A stretch of DNA of 50,399 nt, taken from the NCBI GenBank assembly GCA_023137315.1, contig JAGLPP010000088.1, forward strand, positions 1 through 50,399, given 5' to 3'. The notes beneath the pieces were generated by a model. It saw only the letters and a program-made list of their open reading frames with translations, was not told the origin of the DNA and made no database searches. Origin of the DNA: Bacteriovoracaceae bacterium (lineage in GTDB: Bacteria; Bdellovibrionota; Bacteriovoracia; Bacteriovoracales; Bacteriovoracaceae). This document shows, piece after piece, positions 6,191 to 7,467 of this stretch (position 1 is the stretch's first letter; each line of letters begins with the position of its first letter). A program made the translations under genes and the position numbers.

Positions 6191-6955
6191 TTACTCACTA
6201 AACTCTTCCTCTTCCCTTAAAAATGGCGGCAAGAATGAATTGAGCTTTTCCTTTATAAGCCTCGGGTTCTCTCCTGCAACAATACCAAGAGTCCCCGCAA
6301 CAATAATATTCATCTTTAAAATCTCATCTGTTGAACGCTGTTTTATTTTATTTCTCACCGGGTAGGCAAAAATATTGGCAAAGACCGAACCATAAAAAGT
6401 CGTTAAAAGTGCAATCGCCATCGCCGGGCCGATTGATGACGGATCCGAAAGGTTTTTAAGCATGATAATAAGACCGATCAGGGTTCCAATCATACCAAAA
6501 GCGGGCCCGTCAGCACCAAACCCGTCCAAAACATCAACGCCCTTTTTATGTCTCATCTCCATTGAATCAATCTCCAATTGCAAAATGGACTGGAGAACTT
6601 CCGGTGGCCTGTTATCAGCGGCCAGGTTCATCGCCTTTTTCAAAAAAATATCATCTATTGGAACCTTTTCAAGAGCAAAAACAGATTCTCTTCTGGCAGT
6701 TTCAGCAAGCTTGACTATTTCCTCAATGGTCATCTTTGGATCAACAGGAGTGAAGAAAACTGATTTCATAATTACAGCAACAAGGCCCTTTAAAATCTCC
6801 ACCGGCCACTTAATACAAGTAGCACCAATAACCCCGCCACCAACAACAATCATTGAAGGAACATCAAAGAACAAAAGGAGATCCCCTCCGGCAAGTATAG
6901 AACCAACTATTGCTATCGTACAAAAAACAAAACCGATAATGGTGGATATATCCAT
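6191..6955 (-). CDS. motA: Flagellar stator protein MotA
   Basis: MotA is the membrane partner of MotB and pushes on FliG to turn the flagellum. The chosen ATG (6953-6955, protein MDISTIIGF...) has an AGGGAAGG site about five bases upstream; an in-frame start at 6982 lacks one. The sequence has four hydrophobic segments (about 5-22, 28-50, 146-166, 178-198) and a large cytoplasmic loop with the conserved KGVDVLDGFGADGPAFGMIGTLIGLI and FYGSVFANIFAYPV blocks. A possible sigma-28-like element (TAAGGCCA, 12 bases, TCCGATAG) lies at about 7028-7055; it is weak. It forms a unit with motB and the downstream pseudouridine synthase gene. Confidence 0.95.
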   Translation of the reverse strand: MDISTIIGFVFCTIAIVGSILAGGDLLLFFDVPSMIVVGGGVIGATCIKWPVEILKGLVAVIMKSVFFTPVDPKMTIEEIVKLAETARRESVFALEKVPIDDIFLKKAMNLAADNRPPEVLQSILQLEIDSMEMRHKKGVDVLDGFGADGPAFGMIGTLIGLIIMLKNLSDPSSIGPAMAIALLTTFYGSVFANIFAYPVRNKIKQRSTDEILKMNIIVAGTLGIVAGENPRLIKEKLNSFLPPFLREEEEFSE

Positions 6956-7100
6956 AAGATACCTTCCCTGATAAAAGACCACGCTTGAAATTCCATGCGC
7001 TTAAACATGTCCACTTGATACAACTATCGGAAATCAAAAGACATGGCCTTAAAATTTTTTTGTTTTATATGGAAAATATTACCGGGCAGTAATCAGTCGT

Positions 7101-7316
7101 TTATTTTTTGAATGTATTGTCAAGATAACCAAGCATTGCCTTCCTGAGTCCCTTTAACGAAACTCTGTCTCCGGTAATGAGAAGTTCTTGCTTGATAAAC
7201 TCAACTGGGAAACCAGTCATTTCAGAAAGAGAAGACAGCTCTATCTTGTCTTCCTCCATGAGTGTTGCATTATTATCATTCCGTTCCATGGATTCCGATA
7301 AAATCTCTGTCGTCAT
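7101..7316 (-). CDS. 71-residue cytoplasmic protein upstream of motAB
   Basis: I do not recognise this protein. It starts MTTEILSESMER, is acidic in its first half and ends with a predicted helix LKGLRKAMLGYLDNTFKK. There is no signal peptide or membrane segment. The ATG at 7314-7316 has AGGGAG seven bases upstream; a GTG two codons earlier is less likely. Its start overlaps the stop of a 19-codon leader ORF as ATGA, so translation of the two is probably coupled. The 145-base gap to motA leaves room for a separate motA promoter. Its location suggests a small motility regulator, which is inference only. Confidence 0.7.
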   Translation of the reverse strand: MTTEILSESMERNDNNATLMEEDKIELSSLSEMTGFPVEFIKQELLITGDRVSLKGLRKAMLGYLDNTFKK

Positions 7317-7372
7317 TTGCACACTCCCTTGCTTTGTTTACAAGCAACGATCCTGTTGTTGCCTGAGGTCAT
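7313..7372 (-). CDS. 19-residue leader peptide or small protein
   Basis: A short frame encodes MTSGNNRIVACKQSKGVCK. It is supported by a perfect AGGAGG site (7378-7383) five bases before its ATG and by an exact ATGA overlap with the next gene. The SD and ATG lie within an inverted repeat (GAGGTCA, 3-base loop, TGACCTC; 7365-7381) that would hide both in an RNA hairpin. No comparable family is known to me. It could be a regulatory leader peptide or simply a small protein; its existence as a translated frame is likely, its role is unknown. Confidence 0.5.
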   Translation of the reverse strand: MTSGNNRIVACKQSKGVCK

Positions 7373-7381
7373 GATGACCTC
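7365..7381 (-). promoter_or_regulatory. Hairpin covering the leader ORF ribosome binding site
   Basis: The 17 bases GAGGTCATCATGACCTC fold into a 7-bp stem with a TCA loop. Five bases of the AGGAGG Shine-Dalgarno are in the 5' arm and the ATG is at the loop and 3' arm. This arrangement would limit initiation until the stem opens. It could act as a thermosensor or protein-binding element; the sequence shows only the pairing. Confidence 0.5.
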
Positions 7382-7467
7382 CTAAGATCATATCTGTAGA
7401 AAAATTCTTAACGCAAGTTTTATTAACAAAATGTAAGATTTTTTAAGATAAAAGTCACTATTCTTCT

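Follow-up and report, generated by a model that had tools for sequence, protein, structure and literature searches.

We consider it likely that the leader of a gene for a 71-residue protein, found in the window (i.e., the whole stretch of 50,399 nucleotides analyzed here, from a Bacteriovoracaceae bacterium), is a 5′ untranslated region controlled by CsrA, through which the expression of the protein would be repressed. Comparison among relatives supplies the promoter, the GGA-containing hairpin, the extended conservation of the Shine-Dalgarno (SD) sequence, the covariation of the stem, and the presence of CsrA and FliW; the binding of CsrA, the sign of its effect (repression), the input of FliW, and the transcription start are what we infer. 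The best-supported candidate for the regulatory device is a hairpin at 7365–7341 (hairpin II) acting together with the SD of the gene itself, rather than an SD-sequestering hairpin of an upstream open reading frame (uORF). The features to be considered, all on the minus strand, are as follows.

7432..7437, minus strand: CTTACA box, 15 bp upstream of the -35 element, probably an activator site or an extended promoter element; present in nearly all of 114 leaders.
7411..7416, minus strand: -35 element, TTGCGT (TTGACA or TTGACT in relatives), at the aligned position in 114 leaders.
7387..7392, minus strand: -10 element, TATGAT, after an 18-bp spacer.
7378..7383, minus strand: AGGAGG, taken as an SD in the initial annotation, not conserved and probably cut by the transcription start.
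7365..7381, minus strand: hairpin I, GAGGTCA-TCA-TGACCTC as read from the sequence, likely the 5′-terminal hairpin.
7313..7372, minus strand: uORF of 19 codons, peptide MTSGNNRIVACKQSKGVCK, whose stop codon overlaps the start of the 71-residue gene; probably incidental, as judged from the sequence and the family comparison.
7341..7365, minus strand: hairpin II, CAGGCAAC-AACAGGATC-GTTGCTTG, with the loop GGA at 7353–7351; candidate CsrA site 1, from the sequence and the leader statistics.
7321..7331, minus strand: CAAGGGAGTGT, SD of the 71-residue gene, with GGA at 7327–7325; candidate CsrA site 2.
7101..7316, minus strand: gene of the 71-residue protein, of no known family (ORF 7316–7104, stop 7103–7101).
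7025..7051, minus strand: sigma-28-like promoter of motA, TAAG-N17-CCGATA, with a similar site in 36 of 59 loci having motA downstream.

Leaders of the same gene were read in Bacteriovoracales relatives, and 114 of the 117 distinct leaders had a recognizable promoter. In 113 of these 114, the promoter was kept with a spacer of exactly 18 bp; TTGACA (80 leaders) and TTGACT (28 leaders) were the variants of the -35 element, and TATGAT (50 leaders) and TATGCT (30 leaders) were those of the -10 element. The CTTACA box was located mostly 14–16 or 24–26 bp upstream of the -35 element, and these two preferred distances, approximately one helical turn apart, suggest the action of an activator. The pattern CTTACA-N13-27-TTG-N21-TATNNT had only two copies in the own genome. 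A second CTTACA-type promoter (L190, G000:C44:5589-5638) precedes a predicted secreted protein, and the leader there also has GGA motifs. In the window, the minus strand from the -10 element onward reads TATGAT-CTTAGGAGGTCATCATGACCTCAGGCAACAACAGGATCGTTGCTTGTAAACAAAGCAAGGGAGTGTGCAA-ATG, and transcription is predicted to start at around 7380 (7382–7378), namely inside AGGAGG, which would therefore be cut by, or be located at, the 5′ end of the mRNA.

A GGA exposed in a hairpin loop was a conserved property of these leaders. After k-mer filtering to 73 nonredundant leaders and exclusion of the SD region, we counted 53 leaders with a hairpin loop containing GGA when the stem was required to have 4 bp or more (18.8 ± 3.5 in dinucleotide shuffles), and 44 when it was required to have 5 bp or more (7.5 ± 2.4 in shuffles); AGGA was in the loop of 24 leaders (2.0 in shuffles), and 20 of the 73 leaders had no GGA hairpin by the rule used. 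Among the 64 possible loop trinucleotides, GGA ranked first with 44, followed by 30 for the next one and a median of 5. Of the GGA sites in the leaders, 35% had pairing of 6 bp or more, versus 8–17% of those in the controls (antisense, upstream of the promoter, and coding sequences), and none of 37 motA leaders at the same loci had such a GGA hairpin. Outside the family, the hairpin recurred partially, with stems of 8 bp or more in 7 cases versus 0.6. The loop consensus across the family leaders was ANGGAT, and in the window GGA is likewise exposed in a loop of the ANGGAN type, AACAGGATC, which has nine bases and thus exceeds the preferred hexaloop.

The letters of the stem, furthermore, vary between genera, with each arm still pairing with its own partner, as exemplified by the unrelated stems CTCAGTCAT-GGA-ATGACTGGG, GCTACTC-TAAGGATT-GAGTAGC, GTCGA-AGGA-TCGAC, and TTCAAC-CAGGAT-GTTGAA. 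When the 3′ arms were swapped between leaders, the pairing was lost: pairing of at least 7 bp was observed 30 times with the own arms versus 4.0 ± 1.9 with the swapped ones (maximum of 11 in 500), and the stems therefore covary, with compensatory changes across species. RNAalifold on a MAFFT alignment of 25 leaders from one genus returned no structure, probably because the loop lengths and the gaps introduced by MAFFT shifted the arms.

Two other hairpins of the window, I and III (7347–7329), are competitors of hairpin II. Folding of an RNA starting at 7380 gave probabilities of 0.63, 0.61, and 0.37 for hairpins I, II, and III, respectively, with the GGA of hairpin II unpaired at >0.97; when the RNA was started at 7383, hairpin I rose up to 0.93 and hairpin II fell to 0.06. 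A mapped start thus matters for the probability of hairpin II.

The other half of the putative device is the SD of the 71-residue gene, which belongs to a longer block, CAARGGAGTGT, found in 38 of the 73 leaders. This block followed by ATG within five bases occurs once in the own genome of 3.1 Mb, namely at the 71-residue gene, and the 194 sites of AAGGAG-N5-8-ATG in the same genome have varied letters. Conservation extending past the SD proper suggests that the block is read by a protein; in its letters, the block is similar to RUACARGGAUGU, the consensus of CsrA, for which the loop is ANGGAN (PMC7652899). The GGA overlapping the SD is 26 nt from that of the hairpin in the window, and the corresponding spacing was 19–26 nt in 25 of 44 leaders; CsrA is known to bridge two sites over a range of 10–63 nt with an optimum above 18 nt (PMC7652899).

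The protein that would read these sites is encoded in the own genome, where csrA and fliW adjoin each other. CsrA of this genome has 76 residues and retains L4 and R44 for RNA binding. In the family, CsrA was found in 34 of the 37 genomes sampled (the own genome included), one of these matches, at the end of a contig, being only partial; in G032, a genome that appears to be complete, the GGA hairpin is present with no csrA found, perhaps due to an assembly gap. The flagellin leaders of the own genome, inspected by eye as a positive control, were GGA-rich yet not decisive with regard to CsrA sites. Nine flagellin-like matches were noticed on several contigs of this genome (G000), one of which is just upstream of csrA-fliW. 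In a full-text search for Bdellovibrio and CsrA, neither word was in the title or abstract of any paper returned, and CsrA targets in Bdellovibrionota hence appear to be unstudied in the open literature covered by the search.

It is nonetheless conceivable that the GGA hairpins are bound by another RNA-binding protein or merely stabilize the mRNA, given that their assignment to CsrA is based on sequence comparison and that 5′-terminal hairpins of at least 5 bp, many of which are the GGA hairpin itself, were twice as frequent as in shuffles (30 of 73 leaders versus 15.4 ± 3.6). Three features fit the rules of CsrA specifically, however, namely the loop ANGGAT, the presence of another GGA at the SD, and the distance between the two, and CsrA is present nearly everywhere in the family; this explanation is thus regarded as improbable.

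In the preferred reading, namely repression by CsrA, transcription would start near 7380 from the conserved, dedicated promoter, and hairpin II in the RNA would expose ACAGGAUC in its loop, while the SD block (CAAGGGAGUGU) would offer the second GGA downstream. A CsrA dimer may then bridge both GGA sites and block the ribosome, thereby repressing the 71-residue protein, and the repression might be lifted by FliW, encoded beside csrA, or by a CsrB-like RNA. The leader would accordingly represent a deeply conserved candidate target of CsrA in Bdellovibrionota and also a test case in which the sequence of a stem turns over with the GGA loop being held.

The initial annotation had located the control elsewhere, namely in a 19-codon leader ORF with an SD sequestered in a hairpin, and had regarded this arrangement as hard to explain by chance. 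All of its elements are indeed present on the minus strand: AGGAGG (7383–7378), a spacer of five bases, ATG (7372–7370), 19 sense codons, a TGA (7315–7313) that overlaps the start codon of the 71-residue ORF (ATG at 7316), and a hairpin of 7 bp (7381–7365). The claim regarding chance nonetheless does not hold. The conserved promoter puts the predicted transcription start in AGGAGG, and the uORF, its peptide MTSGNNRIVACKQSKGVCK, and AGGAGG were absent from all of the 113 other family leaders compared. Some ATG with a frame closing at the same ATGA was found in 12 of the 114 leaders, only three of which have an SD-like sequence before that ATG. Because a gene beginning with ATGA itself supplies TGA in that frame, the overlap is automatic and is therefore no evidence of function. 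Also, AGGAGG-N4-9-ATG occurs four times within the 50-kb window. Both the frame of 19 codons and the 5′-terminal AGGAGG are thus specific to this genome and most likely unused.

A switch in which hairpin I hides the SD and start of the uORF, and in which temperature or a ligand opens it and thereby activates the small gene coupled to it, could draw on a near-perfect palindrome of 17 bases and on the high folding probability of hairpin I when the RNA starts at 7383. The SD, however, would lie at or beyond the 5′ end of the mRNA, the fold of the whole leader is not unusually good (z of only -1.58), and the sequence of hairpin I, proposed in the initial annotation to be compared in relatives together with the peptide, is not conserved among the family leaders; we hence consider this switch very improbable. 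A transcription start downstream of 7378 had been named as an outcome speaking against it, and the predicted start, being within the SD, comes close to that. An RNA thermometer or riboswitch class was also considered and rejected, since a scan of the region against Rfam matched no family and hairpin I is not conserved.

The main rival to repression through the CsrA hairpin and the SD is a coupling in which translation of the 19 codons unfolds hairpin II and the ribosomes then restart at the overlapping ATG, the uORF being a lineage-specific device added to a CsrA leader. There is a documented precedent, contrary to the remark in the initial annotation that no described equivalent was known: iraD of Escherichia coli is regulated by CsrA via an overlapping short uORF, ORF27 (PMC5574718). 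The AGGAGG, its five-base distance to ATG, and the ATGA overlap would all suit such a coupling, and the frame of the uORF indeed passes through hairpin II. The predicted start of the mRNA inside AGGAGG, the lack of the uORF and its peptide in 113 relatives, and the strong SD of the 71-residue gene itself argue against the coupling, which we therefore judge to be quite unlikely. Repression by CsrA at hairpin II and the SD of the gene thus remains our preferred reading, and the initial annotation was probably right on regulated translation and wrong on the device: a region controlling the 71-residue gene is very probable, and a protein effector (CsrA) is likely.

The leader also draws attention to the 71-residue protein itself, an uncharacterized small protein that most of the family possesses. 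Among 129 genomes of the family, 118 had a homologue of it, and with the profile a homologue was found in 186 of the 291 phylum genomes; named records with related sequences were from Bacteriovoracaceae, Halobacteriovorax, and Bdellovibrionales. Sequence searches of Pfam, NCBIfam, and PDB gave nothing significant. An AlphaFold model (pLDDT 74.5, pTM 0.50) begins with a disordered stretch, followed by a compact core with the order strand-helix-helix-strand-helix and pLDDT of approximately 81–88 over residues 21–70. Foldseek with this model also returned nothing significant (best E of 0.8), and the similarity to the excisionase TorI (TM 0.51–0.54, E of 2.5) is only a hint of a helix-turn-helix-like fold.

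Description of this gene as lying before motAB was loose. The start of motA is probably ATG at 6955, not GTG at 6982 given in the mechanical ORF list, and motA has its own sigma-28-like promoter (7051–7025); in about half of the family genomes (52 of 117 loci, despite more than 1 kb of downstream sequence), moreover, motA was not found downstream. The link to the stator is therefore only partial. A first scan of contigs with MotB as the query found no relatives. In other parts of the phylum, a putative ClpP-like ORF often follows the homologue. In one phylum family (f8; L145, L143, L204, L219, and similar loci), such an arrangement has a short leader, in which GGAG of the SD could pair with CTCC in codons 3–4 (GGAGGGGGAAATGGACGTCTCC), a different possible hairpin for sequestering the SD. 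We can only speculate, and think it rather unlikely, that the 71-residue protein is a dedicated node of the Csr circuit in Bdellovibrionota, namely a small regulator, perhaps helix-turn-helix-like, that is found throughout the phylum, is repressed by CsrA, is transcribed from a CTTACA-box promoter of its own, and takes part in switching between swimming and a state of attachment or growth.

Among known systems, the leaders of glgC, hcnA, and hag repressed by CsrA/RsmA share with the present one a GGA in a hairpin loop, a second GGA in the SD, a spacing of 10–63 nt, and the presence of CsrA (PMC7652899). The leader here differs from them in that it has a dedicated promoter and would control an orphan small protein of Bdellovibrionota, the CsrA site is a candidate, and the sequence of the stem turns over completely between genera with the loop staying. 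In E. coli iraD/ORF27, as is the case here, the stop of a short uORF overlaps the start of the gene and CsrA sites (candidate ones here) are located in the leader (PMC5574718); the uORF of iraD is, however, translated and CsrA acts at its SD, whereas the uORF examined here is not conserved and has its SD at the predicted 5′ end. The FliW-CsrA-flagellin switch at hag of Bacillus subtilis also has csrA and fliW adjacent, and the CsrA described here is long (76 amino acids), as expected for the binding of FliW; in our case, the target is not flagellin, and the involvement of FliW is only presumed.
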